44,961 nucleotides of DNA from NCBI GenBank assembly GCA_002168115.1, contig NHCC01000021.1, positions 39,102 to 84,062 of the forward strand. Direction: 5' to 3'. The position numbers were made by a program, and so were the translations under genes. The notes beneath the pieces were generated by a model. The model was not told the origin of the DNA, made no database searches, and was given only the letters and a program-made list of their open reading frames with translations. Position 1 is the first letter of the stretch. Each line of letters begins with the position of its first letter. Source of the stretch: Rhodospirillaceae bacterium TMED23. Lineage in GTDB: Bacteria > Pseudomonadota > Alphaproteobacteria > Rhodospirillales > UBA2165. Of this stretch, positions 4,227 through 25,668 are shown piece by piece.

Positions 4227-4238
4227 AGCGCCAAGGGT

Positions 4239-5939
4239 ATGAAAATGTCTAAAGCAAATAGTTCACTTGATCCCATTACATTAGAAATAATATTCAATGC
4301 ACTCAGATCTGTCGCTGATGAAACTTTTATAACATTAATGAAGAGTGCATACTCAACCAATATAAAAGAGCGTCGAGATCATTCTACAGCTATAATGGAT
4401 AAGTATGGCCGTTTAATAGTCCAAGCTGATGCATCACTTCCTGTGCATCTAGCATCAATGGGCGGACTTATGGTTTCACTTTTAAAAAAATATAAAGGAA
4501 ATATTTTCCCGGGTGATATATTCATTGGCAATGATCCGCACGTTGCTGGCGGCACACATTTGCCAGATATCAATATGGCTATGCCTCTTTTTTTTGAAGG
4601 ACAGTTAATTGCATTTATGTGCAATATTGCGCACCACGCCGATGTTGGTGGGTCGGTTCCAGGAAGTATGGCCGGCGGTATGACCGAAATATTTCAAGAG
4701 GGCATTAGACTTCCAGTAACGCGACTTTTTGAGGCTGGGGAACTTCAAGCCGATATTATGGAATTAATATTACTAAATGTTAGAATTCCAGAGGAGCGGC
4801 GCGGAGATTACTACGCGCAAATCGCATCATGTCGTCTTGGGACAACACGGCTATCTGAGTTAATTGAGAATTATGGTATTACACAACTAAATAACAGCTT
4901 TGACGAGATCATTCATCGAACTAAAAAAAGAATGAAAGAAGCTATAATTGAGATACCTGACGGCATCTATGAATTTAGCGATATTATGGATGATGATGGA
5001 ATGGGCACGTTAGAAATCCCAATTTGCGTGTCAATAATGGTAAAAAATGATTACATATTATTCGATTTTACCGGAACCGCAGATCAAGTAACGGGCAACA
5101 TTAACGTAACACTAAATGCCACTCAGGCCTCTGTATGCTATGCATTGAAGGCTTTGCTTGATCCAGATGTACCAAATAATCAAGGCGTCTTGGATTTACC
5201 AGAAATAATTGTCAAAAAAGGTTCATTACTTGATGCTCAATTTCCTGCGCCCGTAGCGGCGCGCGCGAATACATGCCAAAGAATAATCGATGTCATACTT
5301 GGTGCTTTAGCGAAAGCAAAACCGGAGGCCGCAGTTGCTGCGGCAAACGGAGCAAATACTACGGCTGTATTTTCAGGTGTAAATCCCAGCACTGGCGTCA
5401 GTTATGTCTATCTTGAAACACTAGGAGGTGGGTTTGGAGGACGCGCAACAAAGGACGGAAAAGATGGTGTTCAGGTACACATAACAAATACTTCCAATCT
5501 ACCAGTTGAAGCAATAGAAATGGAGTACCCTCTTATGGTTCATTCTTATAAATTAATTGAGGACTCAGGTGGCGCGGGGCGTAATCGGGGAGGACTTGGA
5601 TTAGAAAGAATTATCGAGCCAATAAAACATGATTGTACTTTCAATGGAGCAGGTGAGCGATTTGAAAATCAACCATGGGGAATTTTTGGTGGTGAAGATG
5701 GAAAATCAGGCGAATTTATTAAAGTCGATAAATCAGGCAAAGCGAGCAGGCTAAATAATAAGCCGATAGCAATAGAAGTTAAGGAAAATGAGAGCATTGT
5801 AATTAGAACTCCCGGTGCCGGCGGGTATGGGCCCGCTAAAGAACGTGAGATTAAAGATATCTCTGCAGATGCTGTAAATAAAAAATTTAGCTATAATTTC
5901 CTCGAGAAAAAATATCCACAATGGAAAAATGGCACATGA
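4239..5939 (+). CDS. hyuB: hydantoinase B/oxoprolinase family protein, HyuB-type subunit
   Basis: LDPITLEIIFNALRSVADE, GDIFIGNDPHVAGGTHLPDI, HHADVGG, GAGGRNRGGLGLER-like and TPGAGGYGP C-terminus; 12 bp downstream of HyuA. Confidence 0.92.
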   Translation: MKMSKANSSLDPITLEIIFNALRSVADETFITLMKSAYSTNIKERRDHSTAIMDKYGRLIVQADASLPVHLASMGGLMVSLLKKYKGNIFPGDIFIGNDPHVAGGTHLPDINMAMPLFFEGQLIAFMCNIAHHADVGGSVPGSMAGGMTEIFQEGIRLPVTRLFEAGELQADIMELILLNVRIPEERRGDYYAQIASCRLGTTRLSELIENYGITQLNNSFDEIIHRTKKRMKEAIIEIPDGIYEFSDIMDDDGMGTLEIPICVSIMVKNDYILFDFTGTADQVTGNINVTLNATQASVCYALKALLDPDVPNNQGVLDLPEIIVKKGSLLDAQFPAPVAARANTCQRIIDVILGALAKAKPEAAVAAANGANTTAVFSGVNPSTGVSYVYLETLGGGFGGRATKDGKDGVQVHITNTSNLPVEAIEMEYPLMVHSYKLIEDSGGAGRNRGGLGLERIIEPIKHDCTFNGAGERFENQPWGIFGGEDGKSGEFIKVDKSGKASRLNNKPIAIEVKENESIVIRTPGAGGYGPAKEREIKDISADAVNKKFSYNFLEKKYPQWKNGT

Positions 5940-7764: not shown

Positions 7765-9381
7765 ATGACAAAAGGATTATCTTTCCCAAGACATTCAGAA
7801 AATTTAGCAAATCAATTCCGCGAATTAGGATATTGGAACGATGATACACTAACTACTTATATTGAAAAATGGGCAAAGAAGACTCCAGCAAAAGTTGCTG
7901 TCGTATCGCCAGACACAGAGTTGACCTTTGAAGATTGGCATTTACAGTCGTTGAAATTTGCAAATGGCCTTTTAAAGCTCGGCCTTAAACGGGGAGACGT
8001 TATTGCTATTCAGTATCCCAATACCCCGGAGTTCTTGATCGCCTATATTGGAATTGCACTTATGGGTGGTGTAATGTGCACTCTTCATATGCCTTATAGA
8101 GCTGGAGAAATGGCCCCATTAATGAATCATGGTAAAACAAAAGCGGTTATCTGCGGACAAGGTGATGAAAAATATGATGCCCCAAATACTATGATGAAAT
8201 TAAAAGAAAAGGTTGCTAGCCTGCAACATATAATTGTCATTGGAGAAAAACCATCTGATTACTATAATTTTAATTCATTAATCGAAGAAGCCAATACAAG
8301 CCCAATAGCAGATCCACCTATTGCAAGTGATCCGTGCATTTTATGTTTTACATCTGGCACTTCCGCATCACCAAAAGGAGTTGTAAGAACCTATGAAACG
8401 CTAACTGCAAATGCTAGAATTTATTCACCGACGATCAACTTAAACTCAGAAGATCGTGTAATGGTTGCTCCTCCATTTACCCACGTCTTCGGACTAACAT
8501 GCGGAACGCTGGCTTTATGTTGGGGGTCAACAAATATTTTAATGCCATTATTTACGCCCGAGCTTTATGCCGATAGACTAATAAATGCCCAACCAACGAT
8601 TGTATTTTCAGCACCCGCCCACGTTGCTGCTACGATAAAGGCTGGCTTGCTCGACGATGTCGATTTATCCTCTTTGAAAGAAGTTATAATCGCGGGCTCA
8701 GTATGCCCGCCAGAGGTAGCCGCCAACCTCGAGCGACGAATGCCAAACGGCAGGTCGGGTCAGCTTTTTGGTATGACAGAAACAATTTTAATTATGCAAA
8801 CCCCCTTAGATGAAAAACCAGAAATACGCCATTCCAGCACTGGACGAAAAACAGAAGGAATTGATGTTCGGATAGTAAACCCAATAGATGGTACAGATGT
8901 CCAAATAGGAGAAGAGGGTGAATTGTTATTACGGGGTTATGCAATAATGGCTGGATATTTAAACAATGATGAGGCAAATCGATTAGCTTTTACCAAAGAT
9001 GGATTTTTCCGTTCCGGAGACCTCGCTACTTGCGACTCTGATGGTAATATTATTATTACAGGAAGGGTAAAAGACATAATAAATCGCGGAGGAATAAAAA
9101 TTAATCCAACCGATATTGAAAATATTTTGCAAGGACATCCAAATATAATTTTAGCTGCTCTAGTTCCAATGAAAGATGATGTTTTGGGAGAACGAATTTG
9201 TGCTTTTGCTACCTTAACACCAAATACCAAACTTACGTTTGATCAGATGACCGACCACCTAAGTAAGAACGGAATAGCCAAAATGCGTTGGCCAGAAAAA
9301 CTAGAGATCATCGAAGAAATGCCAATGACGCCTACCAAGAAAATTCAGAAGGGTGAATTGGTCAGAATTCTTGAAAAATAA
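7765..9381 (+). CDS. AMP-dependent acyl/aryl-CoA synthetase (ligase)
   Basis: LCFTSGTSASPKGVVRTYE (P-loop), GMTE, RSGDLATCDSDGNIIITGRVKDIINRGGIKINPTDIE, PMTPTKKIQKGELV C-terminal Lys region. Confidence 0.93.
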   Translation: MTKGLSFPRHSENLANQFRELGYWNDDTLTTYIEKWAKKTPAKVAVVSPDTELTFEDWHLQSLKFANGLLKLGLKRGDVIAIQYPNTPEFLIAYIGIALMGGVMCTLHMPYRAGEMAPLMNHGKTKAVICGQGDEKYDAPNTMMKLKEKVASLQHIIVIGEKPSDYYNFNSLIEEANTSPIADPPIASDPCILCFTSGTSASPKGVVRTYETLTANARIYSPTINLNSEDRVMVAPPFTHVFGLTCGTLALCWGSTNILMPLFTPELYADRLINAQPTIVFSAPAHVAATIKAGLLDDVDLSSLKEVIIAGSVCPPEVAANLERRMPNGRSGQLFGMTETILIMQTPLDEKPEIRHSSTGRKTEGIDVRIVNPIDGTDVQIGEEGELLLRGYAIMAGYLNNDEANRLAFTKDGFFRSGDLATCDSDGNIIITGRVKDIINRGGIKINPTDIENILQGHPNIILAALVPMKDDVLGERICAFATLTPNTKLTFDQMTDHLSKNGIAKMRWPEKLEIIEEMPMTPTKKIQKGELVRILEK

Positions 9382-10484: not shown

Positions 10485-10946
10485 TCAGGTGCGAGAAAAA
10501 TCAATTTCACCACCGGGCAAAAGATATAGCACAATGGCAGTGCCTCCTGTCACTGTCGGTCGATGAGAGGAGCCAGGGCCATACACAACCCATCCAGCAG
10601 CGTGATTGTCGAATTTAGCATTACCCTCAATTGGCATAATTAAATCAATTTCCCCTCTTGGGTGAGCATGATGTGGCCCAACGATGTCAGTCATCACTAC
10701 AACGTCAACACTGAAACCATTAATGTCCTTAACCACCCTTCCATACTTAATTCCGCCATGTTCATTTTGACATAACCAACCTTGTTTGACCCCCGTTTCA
10801 CATGATATCTGGATTTTTTTAAATATTTCGGTTTCAAAGGAGTAATTGGAATTCAATTCAACCGCCAATGAATGGTCAAGTTTTTTATCATAAATGTCTA
10901 AGGTTAAATCACCCATCAACGCCTTAAAATCATCTTTAGTTTGCAC
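10485..10946 (-). CDS. DUF4863 family protein, 4-hydroxylaminobenzoate lyase (PnbB)-like
   Basis: GRVVKDINGFSVDVVVMTDIVGPHHAHPRGEIDLIMPIEGNAKFDNHAAGWVVYGPGSSHRPTVTGGTAIVLYLLPGGEIDF matches remembered DUF4863/PnbB consensus. Confidence 0.75.
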   Translation of the reverse strand: MQTKDDFKALMGDLTLDIYDKKLDHSLAVELNSNYSFETEIFKKIQISCETGVKQGWLCQNEHGGIKYGRVVKDINGFSVDVVVMTDIVGPHHAHPRGEIDLIMPIEGNAKFDNHAAGWVVYGPGSSHRPTVTGGTAIVLYLLPGGEIDFSRT

Positions 10947-10961
10947 GAACCTCTCCCTTAG

Positions 10962-11408
10962 TTAGTCATTACTTATCATTTGATATTTTTCAAGTTTTGA
11001 TCTCAGCTCGTGTGGTATGGGAATAGACTTAAAAGTCTTTGAGTTAACAAAACACGACACCTGTTTTACTTCAAAACAATGAACTTTTTTTTCGTTATAA
11101 CCATTTATCGAGTAATGGATCGAAGCATTCCCCATTTTCTCAATCTTTAGACTTATCTCAACAAAATCACCAGTCCTCAGGGGGTGAAAGAATTCACACC
11201 CCATTTTAACGGTCGGTGTATCTAGCTTTAAATCGCTTTGAAGAGACATCCAATTATGGCCTAAGATTTTAATTAACCACTCTTCTACCGTCTCGATCGC
11301 ATAATGAAAGATTCGAGGCGTGTAAATAACACCAGCTGGATCACTATCTCCCCATAAAACGCGACGACGACACATGAAAACATTAGCCATAAATTTTAAA
11401 TACCACAT
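10962..11408 (-). CDS. 4-hydroxybenzoyl-CoA thioesterase-like (4HBT/YbgC hotdog) protein
   Basis: RRRVLWGDSDPAGVIYTPRIFHYAIETVEEWL active-site signature; true start may be the internal Met at ~11390. Confidence 0.85.
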   Translation of the reverse strand: MWYLKFMANVFMCRRRVLWGDSDPAGVIYTPRIFHYAIETVEEWLIKILGHNWMSLQSDLKLDTPTVKMGCEFFHPLRTGDFVEISLKIEKMGNASIHYSINGYNEKKVHCFEVKQVSCFVNSKTFKSIPIPHELRSKLEKYQMISND

Positions 11409-11532: not shown

Positions 11533-13698
11533 ATGGATGGCGGAACTGCTATAGAACGCGTTAATCTGGGGGGAGAACGATCTTTTGTAAAAGAGATTGG
11601 CAAACTAACAATGGGTGCTGGAGAAGAATTCCATGGCGAGGGAATTTTGGCAGTAACTAAAGCATTGTTGCAGTCTGGAATATCTTATGTTGGAGGTTAT
11701 CCAGGAGCCCCGATGTCCCATCTAATCGATGTATTCGCGGAAGCAAGCAAAGAAATTTTGGAACCCATGGGTATTACTTATGAACAATCTGCTTCTGAAG
11801 CCGGTGCGGCTGCCCTTTTAAGCGCCTCAATTCACTATCCAATCAGAGGGGCTGTAACTTGGAAGTCTGTCGTTGGAACAAATGTAGCATCAGATGCCTT
11901 ATCTAATTTAGCCTCAACAGGTGTAACAGGAGGATCGTTAATAATTCTTGGCGATGATTACGGTGAAGGCTCAAGCATCATGCAAGAACGCACCTACACC
12001 TTCGCAATGAAATCTTCAATACCGCTTGTTGATCCCAGATATGATATGGAAAGACTAGTAGATCTAACCGAACATTGTTTTGGTATTTCAGAAGCTTCTA
12101 ACATGCCAGTATTTCTAAATATGAGAATTAGGGCATGCCACCTAACGGGCAGTTTTATTACAAAAGAAAATAAAATAGCCCAATTCAATACTAATAATCC
12201 AGTTCCTGAACAGCGCTACGATGTTAATAAAATAGTACTCCCTCCTCAGTCTTATCATCATGAAAAAGCTAAATTTGATCAACGTCTTCCAGCCGCTGTA
12301 GCATATTCAAAAGAAAACTCGATAAATGAAATTTTCTCGGGCAATAATGAGAAATATGGCATCATTACCCAAGGTGGAACATATAACGTAGTTATGAGGG
12401 CTCTCAGCCGTCTTGGCGCTGCTGATGCATTTGGTAATACTGATATTCCAGTCTACTGTTTAAATCTTGTTTATCCTCTCATTGAAGACGAAATTATTGA
12501 TTTTGTTAAAGATAAAGATAGTATTCTAATAGTTGAAGAAGGAAACCCCAATTACATAGAAACTCAAATTGCAACGATTATTCATGCACAAGGCTTGGAT
12601 TGCCGCGTCCATGGCAAAGGCATGCTGCCAATGGCAGGTGAATATGTTTCTAACGTTGTGAGAGAGGGCGTTGCACAATATTTAGCTGAAGAGGCAAGCG
12701 GTGCTACTGGTGAATTAGCCCTTGAAAAAAATAGTATAATTAATTCGAATACACACAAAGCACAAGAATACCTTCCAGAACCGATGCCCGTACGTCCTCC
12801 ATCATTTTGTACAGGATGCCCTGAGAGACCGATTATGGCTGCATTGAAAATACTGATGAAAGAACGAGGGAAATTTCATATTTCTATGGATATCGGGTGC
12901 AATTTATTTGGATCTCTCCCCCCGTTCAACGTGGGAAATACGGTTCTAGGATATGGACTTAGTCTTGCGAGTAGCGGCGCTGTAGGTCCAGCATTAGGCC
13001 AATCAAATGTTGCAATCATGGGTGATGGTGGTTTTTGGCATAATGGATTTACTACCGGGATTATAAACGCAAAGTGGAATAAATATGATTCGGTTCTTGT
13101 CATTCTAGATAATGGATATGCCGCCGCGACCGGACATCACAAATTACCATCTACCGGCATGACCCCAAAGGGAACGCCCTCCCTTCTATCGATAGAAAAA
13201 GCTTTACGAGGCGTAGGTGTTGAGTGGATTAAACATGTTGACTCCTATAGTTTGGAGGAAACGATCAATGTTCTGCGAGAGGCTATGGATGCTAAGGATA
13301 AAGGTCTTCGCGTTGTAATTTCTAACAAAGAGTGCATGCTTGCATTACAAAGGCGAGAGAAACCTGCGAAAGCGGCAGCATTAAAGGCTGGCCAAACGGT
13401 AATTAAGGAAAAGTTTGGAGTTGACGAAGAAGTTTGCACCGGAGATCATTCTTGTATGAGATTAAGTGGATGTCCTTCTTTAACTCTGAAAAAAAGTAAT
13501 GATCCATTAAAGGAAACACCAACAGCGCATGTAGACGAAACTTGCGTTGCATGCGGTAATTGTGGCGAAGTGGCTCACGCCGCTCAACTTTGTCCATCTT
13601 TTTTTAAAGCGCAAGCTGTTCAAAACCCAAGTATGGTTAGAAAATTAAGTTCGAAAATAAATCGAGCTATGCTCTCAATGCTTGGAGCACAATCATGA
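11533..13698 (+). CDS. iorA: indolepyruvate:ferredoxin oxidoreductase alpha-like subunit (TPP-dependent, C-terminal Fe-S motifs)
   Basis: GGYPGAPMSHLIDVF, YEQSASEAGAAALL, FCTGCPERPIMAALK, IMGDGGFWHNG...NGYAAATGHH, C-terminal CTGDHSCMRLSGCPS and CVACGNCGEVAHAAQLCP. Confidence 0.9.
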   Translation: MDGGTAIERVNLGGERSFVKEIGKLTMGAGEEFHGEGILAVTKALLQSGISYVGGYPGAPMSHLIDVFAEASKEILEPMGITYEQSASEAGAAALLSASIHYPIRGAVTWKSVVGTNVASDALSNLASTGVTGGSLIILGDDYGEGSSIMQERTYTFAMKSSIPLVDPRYDMERLVDLTEHCFGISEASNMPVFLNMRIRACHLTGSFITKENKIAQFNTNNPVPEQRYDVNKIVLPPQSYHHEKAKFDQRLPAAVAYSKENSINEIFSGNNEKYGIITQGGTYNVVMRALSRLGAADAFGNTDIPVYCLNLVYPLIEDEIIDFVKDKDSILIVEEGNPNYIETQIATIIHAQGLDCRVHGKGMLPMAGEYVSNVVREGVAQYLAEEASGATGELALEKNSIINSNTHKAQEYLPEPMPVRPPSFCTGCPERPIMAALKILMKERGKFHISMDIGCNLFGSLPPFNVGNTVLGYGLSLASSGAVGPALGQSNVAIMGDGGFWHNGFTTGIINAKWNKYDSVLVILDNGYAAATGHHKLPSTGMTPKGTPSLLSIEKALRGVGVEWIKHVDSYSLEETINVLREAMDAKDKGLRVVISNKECMLALQRREKPAKAAALKAGQTVIKEKFGVDEEVCTGDHSCMRLSGCPSLTLKKSNDPLKETPTAHVDETCVACGNCGEVAHAAQLCPSFFKAQAVQNPSMVRKLSSKINRAMLSMLGAQS

Positions 13699-15146
13699 AT
13701 AAAGTTAACAAAATTAAGTCTAACGTTCGGCCTATATGTATTTTAGTTGGTGCACTTGGCGGACAAGGTGGTGGTGTATTAGTAGATTGGTTGGTAGATG
13801 CCGCGCGAAAAGCCGGCTATCATGCTCAAGGCACATCAACACCAGGCGTGGCTCAAAGAACGGGTGCAACCACCTACTATTTTGAACTCTTTCCAGAGAA
13901 AAATCTCCAGAAAACCCCAATTTTCACATTCTTCCCTGGCTCAGATGATTTAGACTTAATGGTAGCGATGGAGCCAACTGAGGCTGGTCGAGCCATTGAA
14001 AGAGGATTTGTAACAAAATTCACAACCGTTATTTCAGCAACTGACAGAGTATACTCAACAGCGGAAAAGGTGTCTGCAGGAGATGGGCGAATTAATATTG
14101 TTCCTGTTGTTGATGCTATTCAGAAGGCTTCAAAAAAACTAGTTCAGTTGGATCTAACAGCCCTCTCTAAAGGAACTAATGCGCGCGGCAACGCTATTGT
14201 TCTGGGAGCAATAATCGGAAGCGGCATCCTCCCATTAACAAAGGATGAGTGTCGAGACTCAATAAAATCAAAAAATGTTGCCGTAGAAAGTAATCTAGCG
14301 GGCTTTGAAATTGGTTTAAAAGCGATACAAAATAACAATTCAGTCAACTCATCTGACCCAGACCTAATTTTCGAAAAAGCTCCCTCAGCGTTCGACGAGA
14401 AAATTACATTATTTCCAGAGAATGCTCATCTGATAATTTCCCATGGAATAAATCGGCTCATTGATTACCAAAACTCAGATTATGCCAATTTTTATCTTGA
14501 ACGGTTAAAAAAAATACACAATGCGACCAACTCTTCAGACGGCAAATTAGTCTCTGAAGTTGCACGCCATCTTGCGCGTTGGATGAGTTTTGAGGATGTA
14601 ATCCGAGTTGCTCAATTAAAAACTAGGCCGGGTCGATTAGCGCGCATAAGGAAAGACTTAAATATTAACGATCAAATTCCACTTAAGGTAACAGATTATT
14701 TTAAACCGGGAAGAGAAGAATTCATGGGAATGTTGCCAAAATCAATCAGTTGGCTCATCCCTAATGTAGGAAAATTAAAAAAGGGGAAAGGCATCTCTCT
14801 TCACTTACCAACAGGGTCTGCTTTTGGATATGGAATGTTAAAAATTCTATCTTCTTTTAGACCCTTTAGGGCAAAAAGCACTCAATATAAAGAAGAGCAG
14901 AAAATAATTGAACTTTGGTTAGCCGCAATTACTGCTTCAGCGAACGTTAATGAAGATTTAGCCTGTCAGACTGCCGCACTTGCAATTTTAGCCCGCGGTT
15001 ATGGACCTGTTCGAAAATCCGGACTTGATAAACTAATATCCCTTTTTAACGACTGGGACGCACGATTAGAAAGTGATAAAAACGGCTTGAGTATAGAAGT
15101 TGACCAACATATTTTATTGGCTCACTCTAATCCCGATGCCACATAA
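13695..15146 (+). CDS. iorB: indolepyruvate:ferredoxin oxidoreductase beta-like subunit with C-terminal DUF6537-like extension
   Basis: GALGGQGGGVLVDWLVDAARKAGYHAQGTSTPGVAQRTGATTYYFE gamma-domain signature; C-terminal region resembling DUF6537; ATGA overlap with upstream gene. Confidence 0.85.
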   Translation: MNKVNKIKSNVRPICILVGALGGQGGGVLVDWLVDAARKAGYHAQGTSTPGVAQRTGATTYYFELFPEKNLQKTPIFTFFPGSDDLDLMVAMEPTEAGRAIERGFVTKFTTVISATDRVYSTAEKVSAGDGRINIVPVVDAIQKASKKLVQLDLTALSKGTNARGNAIVLGAIIGSGILPLTKDECRDSIKSKNVAVESNLAGFEIGLKAIQNNNSVNSSDPDLIFEKAPSAFDEKITLFPENAHLIISHGINRLIDYQNSDYANFYLERLKKIHNATNSSDGKLVSEVARHLARWMSFEDVIRVAQLKTRPGRLARIRKDLNINDQIPLKVTDYFKPGREEFMGMLPKSISWLIPNVGKLKKGKGISLHLPTGSAFGYGMLKILSSFRPFRAKSTQYKEEQKIIELWLAAITASANVNEDLACQTAALAILARGYGPVRKSGLDKLISLFNDWDARLESDKNGLSIEVDQHILLAHSNPDAT

Positions 15147-15169
15147 TCACAAGACTTAGGAAATTTAAT

Positions 15170-15670
15170 ATGTCTGACAAACGAGCTAAAACTCACCTAC
15201 ACTGCACCGTTAATGGTAAAGAACGTGATAATTTTGTAGCCGATAATATGCTATTAGCTGACTATCTTAGAGAAGAATTAGCATTAACAGGAACTAAAAT
15301 TGGGTGCGATGGCGGAGAATGTGGATGCTGTACGGTCCTAATTGATGGAAACCCTCAACATGCTTGTTTAAGGCTCGCCGCTACTTGTCAGGAATTGGAG
15401 ATTGAGACCATCGAAGCCATATCAAATCAAAGCAGAATGTCCGCGATACAAAGAGGGTTCCATGAAAAACTAGGTACCCAATGCGGATTTTGTACTCCTG
15501 GTATGATTATGGCAGCTGAAGCACTATTACGTAAAAACCCTGACCCAACGATAGATGAAATTCGGAGCGGTCTAGCCGCAAATATATGCCGATGTACCGG
15601 ATATATTAAAATAATAGAGTCAGTCCAATTTGCTGTAAATGAAATGAAATTAGAGAGTACGCAAAAATGA
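15170..15670 (+). CDS. hcrC: 4-hydroxybenzoyl-CoA reductase-like gamma subunit, [2Fe-2S] protein of XDH family
   Basis: GTKIGCDGGECGCCTVLIDG and CGFCTPGMIMAAEALL...ANICRCTGY motifs. Confidence 0.85.
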   Translation: MSDKRAKTHLHCTVNGKERDNFVADNMLLADYLREELALTGTKIGCDGGECGCCTVLIDGNPQHACLRLAATCQELEIETIEAISNQSRMSAIQRGFHEKLGTQCGFCTPGMIMAAEALLRKNPDPTIDEIRSGLAANICRCTGYIKIIESVQFAVNEMKLESTQK

Positions 15671-17979
15671 ATGAGATCAAGCCAACATCATCAATAGGAA
15701 TTCCAAAACCCCTCGTCGATGGTCCAGAGAAGGTGACTGGTAAAGCTCGTTATTCAGCGGATTTTATTCCTTCAGACTGTCTTGTAGGTCGAATATTTAG
15801 AAGTCCAGTTTCGCATGCGGAAATTATGGAAGTCGACATATCGGATGCACTGTCGTTACCCGGCGTCAAAGCGGTAATTACAGGTGAGGAGACGGATGAA
15901 CCTTATGGCGTTCTTCCGATAGCACGCTTTGAATATCCAATGGCACGCGATAAAGTTAGATACAAAGGTGAACCCGTTGCCTGTGTTGCTGCCGTCGATG
16001 TTGAGACGGCTCAAAAAGCGATTGATCTGATTAAATTTAAGTATAAAGAGTTACCTGCATATTATACCTCTCAGGACGCTATGGCGGAAGGTGCAGTCAA
16101 TTTGCATGATCACAGGCCGGGTAACGTAGAACGTGATGTGGATTTTGATCTAGGCGATACAGACAATGGCCTCACGGAGGCAGACCTAATAATGGAAGAA
16201 AAATATAATTGTGCTGAAATTGCTCAGGTACAAAGTGAACCTCATGCAGCGATTGCAGAATATGATTCGACTAGAGAGTTCTTAACTGTGCACGCAAGCA
16301 CTCAGGTTCCCTACTATGGACATAAAATGCTAGCTAAAGTCCTCAAAATGAAAGAGAGCCAAATTAGAATGATCAAACCTTTCGTGGGGGGAGGATTTGG
16401 TTGTAGAACTGAATGTTTAAATATTGAATTAATTTGTGCATTAGTCGCACGAGCCGCCAAAGGAACGGTTAGGATCGTTGCGAGCCGCGAAGAAACATTT
16501 ATTACTCATCGAGGCAGGCCCGAAACAGACGTGGAAATGAAGATAGGGGTTAAAAATGATGGGACAATAACCGCGGTAGACTTTAAAGCAATTCAGCGCG
16601 GCGGTGCCTACAGCGGATATGGTGTAGTAACTATCTTATATTCTGGTGGTTTAATGTTTGGTTTATATGATCTGCCCGCCGTGCGCTATCGGGGATTACG
16701 TATTTTAACAAATACACCTCCACCAGGTGCAATGCGAGGTCATGGTATAACAGATGTCAGATACGCTTTTGAAAATTTACTCGATAAAGTTGCCAATAAA
16801 CTAGGCGTTGATCCAATTGAAATCAGGCGAAAAAACTTATTAGAGGGTCCCAAATACGAGACCCTAAATGAGATGTTCATTAACTCTTACGGATTACCTG
16901 AGTGTTTAGATTGGGTTGAGGAAAAGAGTGGTTGGAAAAGTAGAAAAGGTAATTTAGGACCAAACAGAGGTTTGGGAATAGCCTGTGCCCATTATCCGAG
17001 TGGCGCATCAAAGCCTGTTAATTGGACTGGAGAACCTCATGCTACGATACACTTAAAATTAGATTGGGACGCTTCAATTACTGTACTTACAGGTGCTCCC
17101 GAAATTGGACAAGGCTCGACTACGATGGCCACTCAGTGTGCTGCAGAGGTCTTGGGATTAGATATGTCTCGTTTTCAAAGTTTGACAAGTGATAGCAAAC
17201 TAACACCAAAAGATAATGGCTCCTACTCGTCGCGCGTAACCTACATGGTTGGCAATGCATCCATCGATGCGGCTAAAAACTTAAAAAACATATTAATTGA
17301 AGCTGCAGCTCGAAAGCTCGAAGTAAAACCTGAGGATATTGAGTGTCTTGGAGAAGTATATCGAGCAGGTTCGCAAGATGAGGGGCTTTCATTTCCTGAG
17401 GTGGTTCAGGCAGCTTTAGAAGGCACTGGAACAATAACCGTTAAAGGTAATTTTGACACTCTTCCAGAGTCATGGGGCACAAAAAAGTATCGCGGAGGAG
17501 CCATAAGTGGAAGTATGGCTTATGCTTACGCAGCTCAAGTTGTTGAGGTCAGTGTTGATCCAGATACAGCAGAAATTACTGTCGAAAAGGTTTGGGCTGC
17601 TCAAGATGTTGGAAAGGCTTTAAATCCACTCGCCGTCGAAGGCCAAATCGAAGGTTCGGTTTGGATGGGAATGGGACAAGCTATTTCTGAAGGTACCAAA
17701 TATGTAAATGGTCTAGGAATTACAAACAACATGCTTGATTATCGAGTACCAACAATAATAGAGTCTCCTCCAATTGATGTTGGCATTATTGAAAGTGTTG
17801 ACCCCCATGGGCCCTTCGGAGCAAAAGAAGCTGGAGAGACATCACTTGTAGCATTTATACCCGCCTTAACCAATGCAATCGCAGATGCTGTTGGCGTTAG
17901 ACCTCTTGACTTACCTGTAACATCGGACCATTTACTTGAACTTATGGAAAACTATAAGACCAGAGAGGCTGCTGAATAA
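15667..17979 (+). CDS. hcrA: 4-hydroxybenzoyl-CoA reductase-like alpha subunit, molybdopterin-binding
   Basis: XDH-family large-subunit motifs GGGFGCRTE, TPPPGAMRGHG, GAPEIGQGS, HGPFGAKEAGE; ATGA-coupled to 2Fe-2S subunit and followed by HcrB-like subunit. Confidence 0.85.
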   Translation: MNEIKPTSSIGIPKPLVDGPEKVTGKARYSADFIPSDCLVGRIFRSPVSHAEIMEVDISDALSLPGVKAVITGEETDEPYGVLPIARFEYPMARDKVRYKGEPVACVAAVDVETAQKAIDLIKFKYKELPAYYTSQDAMAEGAVNLHDHRPGNVERDVDFDLGDTDNGLTEADLIMEEKYNCAEIAQVQSEPHAAIAEYDSTREFLTVHASTQVPYYGHKMLAKVLKMKESQIRMIKPFVGGGFGCRTECLNIELICALVARAAKGTVRIVASREETFITHRGRPETDVEMKIGVKNDGTITAVDFKAIQRGGAYSGYGVVTILYSGGLMFGLYDLPAVRYRGLRILTNTPPPGAMRGHGITDVRYAFENLLDKVANKLGVDPIEIRRKNLLEGPKYETLNEMFINSYGLPECLDWVEEKSGWKSRKGNLGPNRGLGIACAHYPSGASKPVNWTGEPHATIHLKLDWDASITVLTGAPEIGQGSTTMATQCAAEVLGLDMSRFQSLTSDSKLTPKDNGSYSSRVTYMVGNASIDAAKNLKNILIEAAARKLEVKPEDIECLGEVYRAGSQDEGLSFPEVVQAALEGTGTITVKGNFDTLPESWGTKKYRGGAISGSMAYAYAAQVVEVSVDPDTAEITVEKVWAAQDVGKALNPLAVEGQIEGSVWMGMGQAISEGTKYVNGLGITNNMLDYRVPTIIESPPIDVGIIESVDPHGPFGAKEAGETSLVAFIPALTNAIADAVGVRPLDLPVTSDHLLELMENYKTREAAE

Positions 17980-18956
17980 TGGAATATATGCCAAATTTTA
18001 AACTCCATAGGCCGAAAAGTAAAGACGAGGCGGCTCAAATAAAGAATGAAAGCTCTGACTCACTATTCGTAGCCGGTGGAACGGACATGATCGTAAACGT
18101 TCGGAGAGGAATAGAGCAACCACATCACTTAATTGATTTAAGCGATATAGCCGAAGTGAAAGAAATTAGTCAGGATAAATCGGAATTAGTTATTGGGTCT
18201 GGAGTAACATTAAATAGCTTAGCAAACAGCGAGAAAATTAAATCTGATTACCCAGCAATCGCTGATGCTGCACTTTCAATAGCTGGAAGTACACACCAAC
18301 AATATGGCACTGTTGGTGGCAATTTATGCCTCGATACACGATGCCTTTTTTATAACCAAAGCGAGTGGTGGCGACAGAGTAACGACTACTGCATGAAAGA
18401 AAGAGGAGAAATATGTCATGTTGCTCCAGGAGGAAAGAGATGCTTTGCAGCATTTTCAGGAGATCTAGCGCCTGCTATGCTCGTTTATAATGCTGAAGTA
18501 AAGATTCATGGACCGAATGGAGTACGCCAATTGGCCCTTCAGGATTTATATCGCAATGATGGCATGAACCATCTAACACTTGAATCTAATGAGCTAATTG
18601 CATCAATTCACTTGTCAAATAATCTTGCCGGGTCTCCATCTAAATATGAGAAAGCCAGGATTAGAGGATCCATAGACTTTCCATTAGCTGGGGCTGCAGT
18701 GAGATTAGAAAAAGAAAATAATAAAATTAAAGATATAACAGTGGCGTTAACCGGCGTTAATCCGTTTCCTCAGATTATAAAGAATACTGAAGCAATGATA
18801 GGGATGGATATTAATGAAAAAACTTTAGATCTACTCCGGGAAAATGTTCGAAAACAGGCAAAACCAATGAAAACAACGACTGTGGCACCTTGGTATCGAA
18901 GACGTGTAGTTGGTGCAATAGCTAAGCGCCTTATGCACGAGCTTTCAGTCGAATAA
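17979..18956 (+). CDS. hcrB: 4-hydroxybenzoyl-CoA reductase-like beta subunit, FAD-binding with extra Fe-S loop
   Basis: VAGGTDMIVNVRRG, TVGGNLCLDTRCLFYNQSEWWRQSNDYCMKERGEICHVAPGGKRCFAAFSGDLAPA; Cys122/138/146/155 loop characteristic of HcrB; TAATG overlap with upstream gene. Confidence 0.88.
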   Translation: MEYMPNFKLHRPKSKDEAAQIKNESSDSLFVAGGTDMIVNVRRGIEQPHHLIDLSDIAEVKEISQDKSELVIGSGVTLNSLANSEKIKSDYPAIADAALSIAGSTHQQYGTVGGNLCLDTRCLFYNQSEWWRQSNDYCMKERGEICHVAPGGKRCFAAFSGDLAPAMLVYNAEVKIHGPNGVRQLALQDLYRNDGMNHLTLESNELIASIHLSNNLAGSPSKYEKARIRGSIDFPLAGAAVRLEKENNKIKDITVALTGVNPFPQIIKNTEAMIGMDINEKTLDLLRENVRKQAKPMKTTTVAPWYRRRVVGAIAKRLMHELSVE

Positions 18957-19071: not shown

Positions 19072-20256
19072 ATGTCAGATAAATTAAAATTTCAGTGGGA
19101 TGACCCATTCTTCTTTGAAAGTCAGCTTTTAGAAGAAGAGCGTTTAGTGCAAGAGACAGCCCGAAATTATGCTCAAGAAAAATTAATGCCTAGAGTTCTC
19201 AATGCTAACCGTGAAGAGCGCTTTGATCGAGATATCTTTTTTGAAATGGGCGAATTAGGTTTTTTTGGAATTACCCAACCAGAAAAGTATGGTGGTGCAG
19301 ATCTTAACTACGTTTCCTACGGTCTCGTTAATCGTGAAATAGAGCGCATAGACTCTGGCTATAGATCAATGATGTCAGTGCAATCCTCGCTGGTCATGCA
19401 TCCAATTCACGTTTATGGCAGTGAAGAGCAAAGAGTTAGGTTTTTACCTAAACTGGCGTCAGGAGAGTTTATAGGATGTTTTGGCCTTACTGAACCTGAC
19501 TACGGCTCTGATCCTGGTAGCATGATTACTCGCGCTGAAAAGAATGGCAATGGGTATATTCTGACTGGAAATAAAATGTGGATCTCGAATTCACCTGTAG
19601 CAGATGTATTCGTAGTTTGGGCAAAATTAGACGACGTCATTCGAGGCTTCATTCTAGAAAAAGGAATGGAGGGTTTGAGCGCCCCAAAGATTGAAGGTAA
19701 GTTTTCACTTCGTACGTCGGTAACTGGAGAGATCGTTATGGATCGTGTTTTCGTTCCAGAAGAGAACTTATTGCCTAATGTAAAAGGATTGGGAGGGCCA
19801 TTCGGTTGCCTAAATAAAGCGCGCTATGGAATTTCCTGGGGAACAATCGGAGCTGCTGAGTTTTGTTGGCATGCAGCAAGACAGTATACCCTAGACCGAA
19901 AACAATTTAATAGACCGCTAGCCTCAAACCAACTTATCCAAAAAAAATTAGCTGATATGCAAACTGAAATAACGCTTGGGCTACAAGGGGTTTTACGAAT
20001 TGGTCGTTTAATGGACGAAAATAGGTGCCCGCCAGAGGATATTTCTTTGATGAAGCGCAACAATGCGGGAAAAGCTCTAGATATAGCTAGAGCTTCTCGT
20101 GACATGCATGGTGGAAATGGAATTGTTGATGAATTTCATGTTATACGGCATCTTATGAATTTGGAAACCGTCAACACTTATGAAGGGACCCACGATATTC
20201 ACGCTCTTATATTAGGAAGAGCCCAAACAGGTTTACAGGCTTTTTTTCCAGAGTAA
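19072..20256 (+). CDS. gcdH: glutaryl-CoA dehydrogenase-like acyl-CoA dehydrogenase
   Basis: [81 protein letters not shown] typical of GcdH. Confidence 0.92.
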
Positions 20257-20363
20257 GAAGAGCCATGCAATAGTATATTTATTTGCGCTAATTGTATAAA
20301 TAATTCTAACGTCCACTTCGCATATATAAATGGAGTCAAGCCATAAAAACATAGGCGATTAAC

Positions 20364-21143
20364 ATGAGAAACGATGAAAAATTTCCAGTAATAGGAATAC
20401 CGACGTCGGTCCTTAATTTATCAGACTCTAACTTTAAAGCCCATATTAGTGGTCACAAGTATATTACTGCATTACTAGAATACTCAAAATGCATAGCATT
20501 TCAAATACCCTCGATGGGAAAAAACTATAATTATTCGTATCTGGTTGACCACTTTGATGGAATTTTATTAACCGGTGGACGCGCAAACATTGAACCACAT
20601 TATTATGGAGGCGAGCCATTCCCAGACGGGGAACTAATTGATCCCGAACGAGACTCAACAGTTTTAGAATTAATCCCCATTTGCATTAAATTAGGTGTTC
20701 CATTATTTGGCATCTGTAGGGGGCTTCAAGAAATAAATGTCGCTATGGGCGGCTCCCTTCACTATAGAATACACAAACTGCCAGGGAAAAATGATCACAG
20801 AATGCCAAAGGGCAATAATATTGATGACCAAGAAATTTATGCACTGCGTCACCCCATCACTTTAACTAAGAACGGATTCTTTCATAAGTTATCTGGTAAA
20901 TCAGAATTGAATGTAAATAGTTTACATGGCCAAGGCATTGACCGTCTTGGGCAAGATCTAGCTATTGAAGCAATTTCTGACGATAATATAATCGAAGGGA
21001 TTAGAATAATAAACCATCCTAATTTTGGTATAGCTGTTCAGTGGCATGCTGAATATCAACCAGGACAGGAAGATCACAGATTATCGCGATGTCTCTATGA
21101 GGCCTTTGGTCATGCAGCGAGACAAAGAATGCTAAATCGTTGA
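20364..21143 (+). CDS. gamma-glutamyl-gamma-aminobutyrate hydrolase-like class I amidotransferase (peptidase C26)
   Basis: DGILLTGGRANIEPHYYGGEP, PLFGICRGLQEINVAMGGSLH nucleophile elbow, VNSLHGQGIDRLG, AVQWHAEYQPG. Confidence 0.9.
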   Translation: MRNDEKFPVIGIPTSVLNLSDSNFKAHISGHKYITALLEYSKCIAFQIPSMGKNYNYSYLVDHFDGILLTGGRANIEPHYYGGEPFPDGELIDPERDSTVLELIPICIKLGVPLFGICRGLQEINVAMGGSLHYRIHKLPGKNDHRMPKGNNIDDQEIYALRHPITLTKNGFFHKLSGKSELNVNSLHGQGIDRLGQDLAIEAISDDNIIEGIRIINHPNFGIAVQWHAEYQPGQEDHRLSRCLYEAFGHAARQRMLNR

Positions 21144-21153
21144 TTATTATAAA

Positions 21154-21663
21154 ATGAGAAGAACACCTAATAATCTCAAATCATTCACGCTAATACTTTC
21201 TTTATTGTTACCCATTAACTTTACATCTAAAGATAGTAGAGCGGATATAAGTCAACATTTTGGAATAAAATTTGGAAGCGATTTTAATAGCGTCATCCAC
21301 AAAAGTATAAATATTAGAAAAAATATTCGCACAGTACTCATTGAAACTGAGAATACACCAACGGACACCAAATCTCTTAGAGCCGAAATTTGCGATAATT
21401 TTGGAATACAAATAATTACTTGGCGCAGCATTGAAAGGTCTCTCAGTTCAGGCGTAGAAAGACAAGAGAAAATTCGAAAAGATTTATCAATACTTTTTGG
21501 GCCCTCTAAATTTAAAAATGGGTCTTATATTTGGACAAATAATTCCATTAATATTATTACTAAAATTCGAGCTAATGAGAACAATTACCAAAATCAAATC
21601 CGATATTTTGGACCTAAAAACAACGAGTGTTTTAACCAATTAATCGATACTCAAAACCAATAG
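21154..21663 (+). CDS. hypothetical protein with putative signal peptide
   Basis: 169-aa ORF, basic N-terminus followed by hydrophobic FTLILSLLLPI; no recognised domain. Confidence 0.55.
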   Translation: MRRTPNNLKSFTLILSLLLPINFTSKDSRADISQHFGIKFGSDFNSVIHKSINIRKNIRTVLIETENTPTDTKSLRAEICDNFGIQIITWRSIERSLSSGVERQEKIRKDLSILFGPSKFKNGSYIWTNNSINIITKIRANENNYQNQIRYFGPKNNECFNQLIDTQNQ

Positions 21664-21681
21664 ATTGATTCCTTAAACTAT

Positions 21682-22107
21682 TCACGTTACGCAACTATTG
21701 GATTTGCTCAAGTGCTCTGCCATTTTTCGAACATGGCCAGTTAGTATATTAATTAAAGCCCTTTGGAACGGGTCAGCATTAATTAACTTCTGCTTAAATT
21801 GATTGCGATCGATCACGAGGACTTCCACTATTCCACCAGATGCTCGGGCAGAACCCATCCGTTTCGCATTATCAATTAAAGCCATCTCCCCAAACATGCC
21901 CCCCTTTCCAACAGTTCCAATAACGACATCCTTTTCTCCTACGAGCCTAGAAATACAAACTGTGCCCGATAGCACTACAAAAGCAAGGTCTCCAATTTCC
22001 CCTTCGCGAAAAATATACTTTCCCTCTTTAAATGTTCTTTTTTCAGAACCCAAAGGTATTTGAATTTCTGAGTCCTCGTTATCCGTATTTGGCTGTTCAT
22101 TTATCAT
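21682..22107 (-). CDS. cyclic nucleotide-binding domain (Crp-like, CNMP) protein without DNA-binding domain
   Basis: FREGEIGDLAFVVLSGTVCISRL...IGTVGKGGMFGEMALIDNAKRMGSARA. Confidence 0.88.
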   Translation of the reverse strand: MINEQPNTDNEDSEIQIPLGSEKRTFKEGKYIFREGEIGDLAFVVLSGTVCISRLVGEKDVVIGTVGKGGMFGEMALIDNAKRMGSARASGGIVEVLVIDRNQFKQKLINADPFQRALINILTGHVRKMAEHLSKSNSCVT

Positions 22108-22192
22108 AACTATTCCACGCTTTCTTTATAAATTTTAGATTTAATTATTTGGAAAATCGTATCAAAAGTAAAAAAAATCGAATAAATTTTAT

Positions 22193-23272
22193 CTATGACA
22201 GACGTCCTCTTACTTGTTTTGAATCGGCTGCATAACGATAACATCTAAAAATTATATTTGTTCCTGTATATGCTGGATGATCATACTCAACAAAGTAAGG
22301 TGAAACATACTCCCAAACTATCTCATGGTCGGGAGTAACCTCAAATAATCTTCCCCACAACCCCTCACAAATGAGTGTATTTCCAGATGAAAGGCGTTGG
22401 CATCCACTAATAAACCAGCTCATAAATGACCTGGGTGGTGTGCCAGAGTAGCTCCAAACCTCTTTTTTACTAATTGGATTTATCTCAATAACCCGCGAAC
22501 CAGTCTCTGGTCCATGCACATGAACGTCAGCTCCATTAGCAAAAAAAAGGATATTACCATTATCCAACATTTGAACATCATGATGCTGGCCATATAAAGT
22601 ATCATTTAATGACCATTTTATTTCTTTTGTATCTCTATCAATAATAATCATAGTATTATTATTACGCCAATTTACGATCACATCACCATCCAGAGTTAAA
22701 GCGACAGTATTAGCATGCGCATACTCGCGGCGATTTATAGTTGGATCGATTGGGAACTGAGTCATATCCATATTCTCCAAAACATCCCATTCCCAGACTA
22801 ATTTTCCGTTTGGGTCGACTTCTCTGATTACATCGGTATAAATTGCACCATCATTTTCTGTCCCCGGCATCCCCCCCGGTATCGACTTTAGAATCATTGG
22901 ATCCGTTTGTTTAACCCATGCAGCATAAATAGTATTACCATTTTTTTTTCGCCTAAAATCATGGTGCTGCAAAGGATCATTATGCTCCCAAATTATTTTA
23001 CCATCCCAGTCATATTCAACTAGTCGTCCACCCTTTGCTGGAAGACCAGCATCTTGCTCCTTAGTTCGAATAGCCGCGAGAAGATTACCATTTTCAAGCA
23101 AGTATGCATAATTACCAACGTCACTTGGTAAATCCCACTTATGAACAACCTCACCATCCATATCGATTAAATATGTATTGTACTGTCCTAGCGGAGTAAA
23201 CAATGTATACCCATTAGTAGATTTATTTTTCTTATGCTGAAGAATACCGTATCTGGTGTCAATTGCGGGCAC
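22193..23272 (-). CDS. arylsulfotransferase (ASST)-like beta-propeller protein
   Basis: YNTYLIDMDGEVVHKWDLPSDVGNYAYLLENGNLL...GKIIWEHNDPLQHHDFRRKKNGNTIY, HDVQMLDNGNILFF repeats. Confidence 0.75.
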   Translation of the reverse strand: MPAIDTRYGILQHKKNKSTNGYTLFTPLGQYNTYLIDMDGEVVHKWDLPSDVGNYAYLLENGNLLAAIRTKEQDAGLPAKGGRLVEYDWDGKIIWEHNDPLQHHDFRRKKNGNTIYAAWVKQTDPMILKSIPGGMPGTENDGAIYTDVIREVDPNGKLVWEWDVLENMDMTQFPIDPTINRREYAHANTVALTLDGDVIVNWRNNNTMIIIDRDTKEIKWSLNDTLYGQHHDVQMLDNGNILFFANGADVHVHGPETGSRVIEINPISKKEVWSYSGTPPRSFMSWFISGCQRLSSGNTLICEGLWGRLFEVTPDHEIVWEYVSPYFVEYDHPAYTGTNIIFRCYRYAADSKQVRGRLS

Positions 23273-23355
23273 TCTTTTCTCCTAAAAATAATCAGTTATA
23301 CGTGGTTATGATTTATCAATAAAAATATAACTTTAAAAGGTTTTAAATATTAATT

Positions 23356-23808
23356 TCATCTGCCTTTAATAGGCCCTTGTAAACCGTTTAAAACTTCTCT
23401 TAAACGTTCATCAATTGGCTCGGGCCGCTTACTGTTAGGGTTTAAAAACACTGTAATTGCCTCGGCAATAGAAAGACAATCAGTTCCGCTAAAAAGTGCT
23501 TGTCCCAATGTATACGAGGTATTCCCAACTTTTTTCACCATTGTTCCCACTTCAATTACATTAAGATATTTTATTTCTTTTAAATATTCCACAGTAAATC
23601 GGACTAACGCGAAACCACTTAAAATATTTTTATCTAATACAGCCATCCGTTCAGCACGAAGATTAACCCTACCTTCTTCGAAAAATGAGTTAATTGCCCC
23701 ATTGTTAACATGTTCGTTAGGATCAAGGTCACTGTATCGAGCAGATACATTTATCCAGCTTGAATATGACTCCCTTAACAATAAACTTTCCGTGACTAAT
23801 TTAGACAT
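23356..23808 (-). CDS. acyl-CoA thioesterase (4HBT hotdog family)
   Basis: VSARYSDLDPNEHVNNGAINSFFEEGRV signature. Confidence 0.85.
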   Translation of the reverse strand: MSKLVTESLLLRESYSSWINVSARYSDLDPNEHVNNGAINSFFEEGRVNLRAERMAVLDKNILSGFALVRFTVEYLKEIKYLNVIEVGTMVKKVGNTSYTLGQALFSGTDCLSIAEAITVFLNPNSKRPEPIDERLREVLNGLQGPIKGR

Positions 23809-23815
23809 AATTATT

Positions 23816-24709
23816 TTATCCCTGTTTCCAAGTCCTGTTAATGACTTCTTTCATAATACTCTTCATGGGTAAGTGTTTTTCTAAATATTTATATTTTTCA
23901 TTTGCCAAATCAAAAAGATCTATTTCATTTAGAAAAAATTCTGCTTTATCTACGAATTCGTCACTTCCAGCCACCAAACAAAGGTCAGAATATATATTTG
24001 CAGGTCCTGAATACTCCAACAGAACTGGGATACGATTAATAACTGAGTGACATATGCGAGTCATAGATATAATTCTATGTCGACACGTTTTTTGGATAGA
24101 CAAATTAATTTGACTTCGTTGCATTAAAGAATTTCTTAAATATACGGGAATCGGTTGGTTAAAATAACTTACGTTGTGACCTCGACTTTTCAAGGCATCA
24201 GTAACACCTTTCCTATGCGCTGTGGGTACTCCACACATTAAGAAATCTATGTCTAAATCCTCTTTATTTCTCAGATTATAGTTTGGCTTTAATCTCTCGA
24301 GAAAACCAATAGGTAAAAATATTGTATTGGGATTGAATTTTCTGCATGCTTCGACAGACTCTTCAAATAAACACCAAACAAATTCTGCATTTTCTGCAGC
24401 AATTTGAAAATTTACAACCGAACTTTTTGTTCTTCCTTCTGCCCCAGAATTCCATATACCATCAACAGACAGAACTTCGGTGCAAACCAGACCGTATTTA
24501 ATTTTTAAAATTTTCATTTTTAAAGGTAGGGATGGATTAGTATCAAAGTGATCAAAAAACAAATTAAGTATGTCAGGTTTGAGTTGGTTTACACCAACCT
24601 TTACTTTTATTCCACACTCTTCAAGTGCGATACGAACAAAGTCAATAGTATCTGATAGCATTCCCCACAAATGCGGTTTTAGATTGTTTAACTCAATATT
24701 AATTATCAT
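23816..24709 (-). CDS. putative glycosyltransferase (CgeB/GT1-like)
   Basis: DFLMCGVPTAHRKGVTDALKSRGHNVSYF ... INLSIQKTCRHRIISMTRICHSVINRIPVLLEYSG GT-B-like C-domain pattern. Confidence 0.5.
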   Translation of the reverse strand: MIINIELNNLKPHLWGMLSDTIDFVRIALEECGIKVKVGVNQLKPDILNLFFDHFDTNPSLPLKMKILKIKYGLVCTEVLSVDGIWNSGAEGRTKSSVVNFQIAAENAEFVWCLFEESVEACRKFNPNTIFLPIGFLERLKPNYNLRNKEDLDIDFLMCGVPTAHRKGVTDALKSRGHNVSYFNQPIPVYLRNSLMQRSQINLSIQKTCRHRIISMTRICHSVINRIPVLLEYSGPANIYSDLCLVAGSDEFVDKAEFFLNEIDLFDLANEKYKYLEKHLPMKSIMKEVINRTWKQG

Positions 24710-24729
24710 AGAAAACTCTACGCTAGAAA

Positions 24730-25668
24730 TTATAATTTCTCATATTCTGCATCAATACCAACCTCTCCTCTGGTGCAGATAATATCACGTTTAACAAGAT
24801 CAATAATATGAGATAAAATTGAATGTTGTGCAGCCTTAATTAAGCGTTGATCTAAACCTTCATACATCGCAGATACCATATCAGGAATATTATTTATTTC
24901 TTTAGAAATACAATCGAGTATTTGATTTTCTCTTAATTTCCTGTGAACAATAATCGCGCGTACATATTTTTGTGGCTCAAAGATTGCCCCCCCATGAGTT
25001 GGGTAATATATTTTATCCTCCCGAATTAGAAGTTTTTTTAAACTTAAAATATAATCGGACATGTCGCCGTCAGGAGGAGAAACGACCGTTGTTGACCAGC
25101 CCATCACATGATCTCCTGTAAAAAGAGAATTCTCCTCAATCAATGATAAACATAAATGATTAGACGTATGACCTGGAGTATGGACACACTCAAGGCTCCA
25201 TCCATTCCCTTCAATTATATCACCATCTTTCACCAAAATGTCAGGTGTAAAACTCATATCACCACCGGCTTCAACTGTAATTTCTTTAGCTATTTTACCT
25301 AATCCATGAGGTCCGATTGCGTAAGTTTTAGCCCCTGTTTTTTCTGAAACGTAACGCGCAGCTGGAGAATGATCTAAATGCGTATGCGTAATAATCTGAT
25401 GCGTAATTTTTTCCCCTTGAAGAGAATTTAGTAGAGCGTTAACGTGATCTTGATCGTCGGGCCCAGGGTCAATAACCCCGACATCCCCATAGCCGATAAC
25501 ATAAGTTCCGGTACCCTTAAAAGTATAAGGTCCCGGATTATTAGCAACAATACGGCGGATTAATGGCGAAACTTGAGTAATTTGTCCATACTCGCACTCA
25601 AAGTTTCGATTAAACTCCATCTGATTCTTAGATGACCTTACCATATGTAAAAAAACCTCTCTTATCAA
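24730..25668 (-). CDS. MBL-fold metallo-hydrolase (LACTB2-like)
   Basis: QIITHTHLDHSPAARYVSEKTGAK, LECVHTPGHTSNHLCLSL, LFTGDHVMGW, YPTHGGAI. Confidence 0.92.
   Translation of the reverse strand: MIREVFLHMVRSSKNQMEFNRNFECEYGQITQVSPLIRRIVANNPGPYTFKGTGTYVIGYGDVGVIDPGPDDQDHVNALLNSLQGEKITHQIITHTHLDHSPAARYVSEKTGAKTYAIGPHGLGKIAKEITVEAGGDMSFTPDILVKDGDIIEGNGWSLECVHTPGHTSNHLCLSLIEENSLFTGDHVMGWSTTVVSPPDGDMSDYILSLKKLLIREDKIYYPTHGGAIFEPQKYVRAIIVHRKLRENQILDCISKEINNIPDMVSAMYEGLDQRLIKAAQHSILSHIIDLVKRDIICTRGEVGIDAEYEKL

Follow-up and report, generated by a model that had tools for sequence, protein, structure and literature searches.

The window analysed here, a 44,961-nucleotide stretch from the genome of Rhodospirillaceae bacterium TMED23 (labelled G000), carries five genes in a head-to-tail run on the plus strand (Table 1). 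The first two, iorA and iorB, encode a two-subunit 2-oxoacid oxidoreductase; hcrC, hcrA and hcrB encode a predicted 4-hydroxybenzoyl-CoA reductase (4-HBCR). Open reading frames and sequence reproduce exactly the co-directional arrangement given in the initial annotation: iorA and iorB overlap by ATGA (13695-13698), as do hcrC and hcrA (15667-15670); hcrA and hcrB overlap by TAATG (17977-17981); and 23 bp separate iorB from hcrC. Consensus scans found no terminator-like site in this interval, weak evidence given that there was no excess over shuffled sequences. We infer from the sequence that the operon is co-transcribed.

Table 1. The operon and its neighbours, in window coordinates
Feature	Position	Strand	Basis
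AMP-dependent CoA ligase, possible aryl-CoA ligase	7765..9381	+	PF00501; below all equivalog cut-offs
PnbB-family protein, cupin-like by sequence reading; divergent, kept beside hcr/ior/pad genes	10485..10946	-	PF16155; neighbourhood maps
4HBT-type thioesterase; divergent, a partner gene conserved within the genus	10962..11408	-	PF13279; neighbourhood maps
iorA: TPP-binding 2-oxoacid:acceptor oxidoreductase alpha subunit, 721 aa	11533..13698	+	TPP_enzyme_C; TIGR03336 316 bits, below cut-off
iorB: POR gamma-type domain and DUF6537, 483 aa	13695..15146	+	PF01558, PF20169; NF006179 437.4 > 348 bits
iorB-hcrC spacer, 23 bp	15147..15169	+	sequence
hcrC: 2x[2Fe-2S] gamma subunit, predicted 4-HBCR	15170..15670	+	TIGR03193 top match
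hcrA: molybdopterin (catalytic) alpha subunit	15667..17979	+	TIGR03194; alignment to 1rm6_A
hcrB: FAD beta subunit with 4-HBCR-specific [4Fe-4S] loop	17979..18956	+	TIGR03195; alignment to 1rm6_B
Acyl-CoA dehydrogenase, after hcrB in many relatives	19072..20256	+	PF02771/PF00441/PF02770; neighbourhood maps

A [4Fe-4S] loop distinguishes 4-HBCR from other xanthine-oxidase-type enzymes. In a residue-by-residue alignment of HcrB with 1rm6_B, all four cysteines of this loop (C-x15-C-x7-C-x8-C) are kept, and residues 8-762 of HcrA align with 1rm6_A of the Thauera enzyme. HcrA scores 1096.6 bits against TIGR03194 (cut-off 994.55) and HcrB 412.4 bits against TIGR03195 (cut-off 404.55), both within the curated 4-HBCR families. 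HcrC, at 233.1 bits against TIGR03193, misses its cut-off of 257.8, although this is still its best-scoring family. With two of three curated cut-offs exceeded and the four-cysteine loop in place, HcrABC passes most tests as a predicted 4-HBCR. It resembles HcrABC of Thauera aromatica (PDB 1RM6/1SB3) in its three subunits, the alignment of HcrA and HcrB over nearly their whole length and the loop cysteines; it differs in the slightly low score of HcrC, in sharing an operon with IorAB, and in a genome that has the Box route and in which Bcr is undetected. A second HcrA-like gene, 53-55% identical to HcrA of the window, adjoins a BcrB-like gene scoring below the BcrB cut-off at L213 (G005:C63), G004:C111 and G011:C84.

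What kind of oxidoreductase precedes the reductase? IorAB shares its superfamily, TPP domain, gamma-type domain and Fe-S domain with the arylpyruvate (indolepyruvate):ferredoxin oxidoreductases (IOR). In contrast, both subunits score below the IOR equivalog cut-offs: IorA, a distant IOR alpha subunit, reaches 316.3 bits against TIGR03336 (cut-off 650.9) and IorB 39.3 bits against TIGR03334 (cut-off 205.8), and the enzyme is not a member of the equivalog. IorB belongs to NF006179 (PRK08312; 437.4 bits, threshold 348) and, as a further difference from IOR, carries DUF6537 (PF20169). Its predicted fold (pLDDT 71) matches OFOR gamma subunits in the PDB, and its DUF6537 part gave no significant match in the same search; the predicted model of IorA was poor (pLDDT 46), and no solved relative of IorA was found by sequence. 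The ferredoxin-like Fe-S domain at the C-terminus of IorA contains the motifs CxxDxxC...CP and CxxCxxC...CP, which we take to mark a domain of two clusters in which one ligand is an aspartate. Among IorA sequences of more than 650 aa, some of them duplicates from one genome, 63 of 63 have the Cys/Asp motif pair. Since IorAB has no NAD-binding subunit, electrons would exit via the Fe-S clusters. As the initial annotation noted, no ferredoxin gene is nearby: the motif CxxCxxC...C occurs in no other ORF of the window. In other parts of G000, contig C4 has an FdxA-like ORF and contig C10 a small ferredoxin-like ORF.

An unconserved neighbourhood had been named beforehand as grounds for abandoning the pairing. 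Among 60 relatives, iorB adjoins hcrC in 12 (G000-G006, G008, G012, G014, G016 and G021), which span four genera of one family; the objection does not apply within this clade. The gap is 3-31 bp across the 11 loci measured, and the twelfth genome, G004, follows the same spacing pattern judged by coordinates. In G007, iorAB is present and the contig stops at iorB. A binning artefact is unlikely because a SAG-titled record (L063) and a record without MAG in its title (L068) show the adjacency too.

In the IorB tree, the 22 window-type rows form a single clade with support 100/100, and this clade, tied to Hcr-positive genomes, again sets IorAB apart from IOR. Twelve rows are adjacent to hcrC, four are linked to PaaK, one is at a contig edge, and five are unlinked but in Hcr-positive genomes. 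The source genomes of 21 of the 22 are Hcr-positive, the remaining row being cut at a contig edge. IorAB-PaaK-Hcr or IorAB-PaaK is also found in four other families. The ior-hcr pairing is real and conserved, yet not typical of 4-HBCR at large: of the 80 top HcrA loci in named genomes, 10 have IorAB within the stretch that was fetched, nine belonging to the clade of the window and one to another family. In plasmid collections no HcrA was found, and every IorA relative was below 60% identity.

HcrA and two-subunit IorB co-occur across the 60 relatives (26/2/1/31 for both, HcrA only, IorB only and neither; p = 1.4e-13) and after collapsing by family (7/2/0/22; p = 1.4e-5), both values being uncorrected for shared ancestry. 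Across 289 genomes of the class, with shared ancestry likewise uncorrected, NF006179 is found in 15 of 15 HcrA-positive genomes and 28 of 274 others, and PadB in 13 of 15 and 1 of 274 (13/2/1/273; p = 1.2e-19). The pairing is not due to chance. A single Hcr-specific IorAB was considered as the source of the class-wide co-occurrence and rejected: outside the order, IorAB belongs to a general clade of the IorB tree in which Hcr-positive and Hcr-negative genomes are mixed.

Could ior and hcr be co-regulated catabolic neighbours that exchange neither substrate nor electrons? Window-type IorAB lies away from hcr in five family members, and most other HcrA loci have no IorAB nearby. Against it stand the tight spacing in four genera, the linkage seen in other families and a co-occurrence that is nearly perfect, and we regard this explanation as very improbable.

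The genes that accompany the pair elsewhere suggest a function. In the Pad pathway, arylacetyl-CoA is oxidized to arylglyoxylate, which is converted to aryl-CoA (PMC5109826). Genes resembling those of PadBCD and PaaK co-occur with the genes described here or stand in one operon with them. G032, from another family, has the order thioesterase-PadB-PadCD-IorA-IorB-PaaK-HcrC-HcrA-HcrB (L058); G029 has PadB-PadCD-IorA-IorB-PaaK-HcrC to the contig end (L060), G038 PadCD-IorA-IorB-PaaK to the contig end (L224), and G036 IorA-IorB-PaaK (L222). The order in G252 and G344, from another family, is PadB-PadCD-PaaK-HcrCAB. PaaK scores 611 bits against a cut-off of 646; PadB, a molybdopterin enzyme without a curated model, is named from its operon partners and presumably has the corresponding function. 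G000 itself carries PadB-like, fused PadCD-like and FlK-type thioesterase genes, PadB being on a different contig from the window. The best PaaK match in G000 is at 32%, not a close orthologue, and no PadB match was found in G012, G016 and G021 despite their IorAB-Hcr genes. The FlK-type (fluoroacetyl-CoA) thioesterase gene, upstream of PadB in many genomes and on contig C14 of G000 (L212:11494-11940, minus strand), encodes a candidate for arylglyoxylyl-CoA hydrolysis.

Two genomes, G026 and G027, are the sole Hcr-positive members of the 60 without two-subunit IorB. The order in G026 is thioesterase-PadC-PadD-PadEGHI-PaaK-MarR-HcrCAB: genes of the NADH-dependent phenylglyoxylate dehydrogenase occupy the slot that separates PadCD from PaaK, namely PadE (310 bits, cut-off 300), PadG (711, 700), PadH (584, 475) and PadI (771, 700). 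In G027, a 2-oxoacid oxidoreductase with a GltD-like subunit lies after or beside PadBCD-PaaK (L215:12555-16791); its identification as PadEFGHI was rejected, its proteins scoring below those cut-offs. Strict complementarity of PadG and IorAB was also rejected. Because G004, G005, G011 and G020 hold both, the displacement of IorAB by PadEGHI is a matter of one operon and not a strict either/or. No PadG-type match was found in G000 at 1e-60, and the window enzyme, having two subunits, is not a PadEFGHI member by scores for PadE, PadG, PadH and PadI. Compared with the Pad pathway (PadJ, PadBCD and the phenylglyoxylate:NAD+ oxidoreductase PadEFGHI), the oxidoreductase slot is equivalent; here, however, a two-subunit IorAB without an NAD-binding subunit occupies it and the hcr genes follow directly. 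IorAB is neither an IOR equivalog nor a PadEFGHI member, but may work like PadEFGHI.

Because PadEGHI fills this slot in G026, the likeliest substrate of IorAB is (4-hydroxy)phenylglyoxylate, which the enzyme most likely converts to 4-hydroxybenzoyl-CoA, giving Hcr both its substrate and low-potential electrons. On balance we lean towards reading the operon as a two-enzyme, redox-neutral step in breakdown of the 4-hydroxyphenylacetate type. PadBCD, encoded elsewhere in G000, would convert 4-hydroxyphenylacetyl-CoA to 4-hydroxyphenylglyoxylate by alpha-oxidation. IorAB, running in the presumed direction of oxidative decarboxylation, would yield 4-hydroxybenzoyl-CoA and CO2 from this product and CoA, and two low-potential electrons would leave the Fe-S domain of the enzyme for ferredoxin, the putative carrier, or be handed over directly. 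The electrons would enter Hcr at the [4Fe-4S] cluster of HcrB, and 4-hydroxybenzoyl-CoA would lose its hydroxyl to give benzoyl-CoA. The arylglyoxylate step yields two electrons and Hcr consumes two, which would make the pair redox-neutral. The initial annotation had offered two readings: the oxidoreductase as reductant supply for Hcr, or both enzymes as parts of one pathway. A single pathway through arylglyoxylate oxidation fits best, given the Pad operons and the G026 slot, with electron supply an expectation that follows from it; if IorAB oxidizes arylglyoxylate, both readings hold at once.

The main rival is that IorAB is an ordinary arylpyruvate:ferredoxin oxidoreductase. It would convert 4-hydroxyphenylpyruvate, from tyrosine, to 4-hydroxyphenylacetyl-CoA for PadBCD and send reduced ferredoxin to Hcr, with another enzyme decarboxylating the arylglyoxylate. 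This role is the one assigned to IorAB in Aromatoleum (PMC9765128) and to IOR in Pyrococcus (cited in PMC5109826), and a position beside PaaK and PadBCD suits it equally. It would, however, leave PadG-less genomes such as G000 and G001 with no enzyme for the conversion of arylglyoxylate to aryl-CoA; the G026 slot holds a phenylglyoxylate dehydrogenase and no arylpyruvate enzyme; and the window type forms a clade apart from general IorAB. We consider it unlikely, if the most serious competitor to arylglyoxylate oxidation.

Alternatively, IorAB might oxidize an unrelated 2-oxoacid and serve Hcr solely by reducing ferredoxin, as KorAB does for ring reduction in Thauera. Hcr requires electrons of low potential; in aromatic degraders, such electrons are known to be supplied by KorAB and AadN (PMC9973337); and each of the 14 remaining Hcr-positive genomes in the class sample has an IorAB of the general clade. 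The PadBCD/PaaK operons and the PadEGHI genes in the G026 slot point instead to a role in the carbon pathway, and the G026 enzyme includes an NAD-type subunit, PadH, that would be superfluous for pure ferredoxin supply. We think a reductant-only role quite improbable. IorAB resembles KorAB (Thauera) and AadN (Rhodopseudomonas) in what it is proposed to do, namely to provide aromatic CoA reductases with low-potential electrons; those are different enzymes and do not produce the reductase's own substrate. IOR-family enzymes of aerobes act on other 2-oxoacids, an example being EdcC in estrogen breakdown (PMC7793797).

Where would the benzoyl-CoA go? BoxB is present in 24 of the 28 Hcr-positive relatives and BcrB in 13. 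BoxC and BoxB of G000 lie on the window's own contig; BcrB was not found in G000, an absence that is provisional because the genome is 86% complete. Fourteen Hcr-positive genomes, including G001, G009, G015, G018, G022 and G023 at completeness of at least 94%, have Box with Bcr undetected. In the window's lineage, benzoyl-CoA would enter the oxygen-dependent box route. Reductive dehydroxylation is known from anaerobic metabolism. Marine Rhodospirillales are known carriers of aromatic-degradation genes, and the gene for benzoyl-CoA epoxidase is among those abundant in these waters (PMC9789639). A more specific proposal, possible but rather doubtful, is that IorAB, as a dedicated arylglyoxylate:ferredoxin oxidoreductase, passes its product and its electrons to 4-HBCR, perhaps as a complex without free ferredoxin, with dehydroxylation feeding an oxygen-dependent benzoyl-CoA pathway in open-ocean bacteria. 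Coupling of IorAB to Hcr, if real, would link the 4-HBCR reaction to the box pathway and show how aerobic or microaerobic marine bacteria could drive a reaction for which an anaerobic source of electrons is normally required.

A literature search, with most subscription journals outside its reach, found no paper joining IorAB to 4-HBCR. Judging from gene context, IorAB probably makes the Hcr substrate and also supplies its high-energy electrons. The arylglyoxylate step has been called unclear in Desulfococcus multivorans (PMC5109826). IorAB is a candidate for this step in organisms without PadEFGHI, though the D. multivorans IorAB may be of another type.

Several neighbouring genes deserve mention. 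The PnbB-like gene keeps its place next to hcr or pad genes also in loci where iorAB has another location or arrangement (L052, L056, L060 and L215). The position of the CoA ligase gene is kept in only part of the genus, and the gene is present in L044 at 80%. Downstream of hcrB (19072-25668), several relatives keep the order acyl-CoA dehydrogenase, glutamine amidotransferase-like, arylsulfotransferase-like, second thioesterase and metallo-beta-lactamase fold. An ordinary hydantoinase A/B pair lies at 2169-5939, its nearest solved structure being N-methylhydantoinase; acetophenone carboxylase was rejected as an identity for HyuAB, N-methylhydantoinase scoring far better. At 35151-38252 on the minus strand is a gene for a 1033-aa ABC transporter with a C-terminal cyclic-nucleotide-binding domain.
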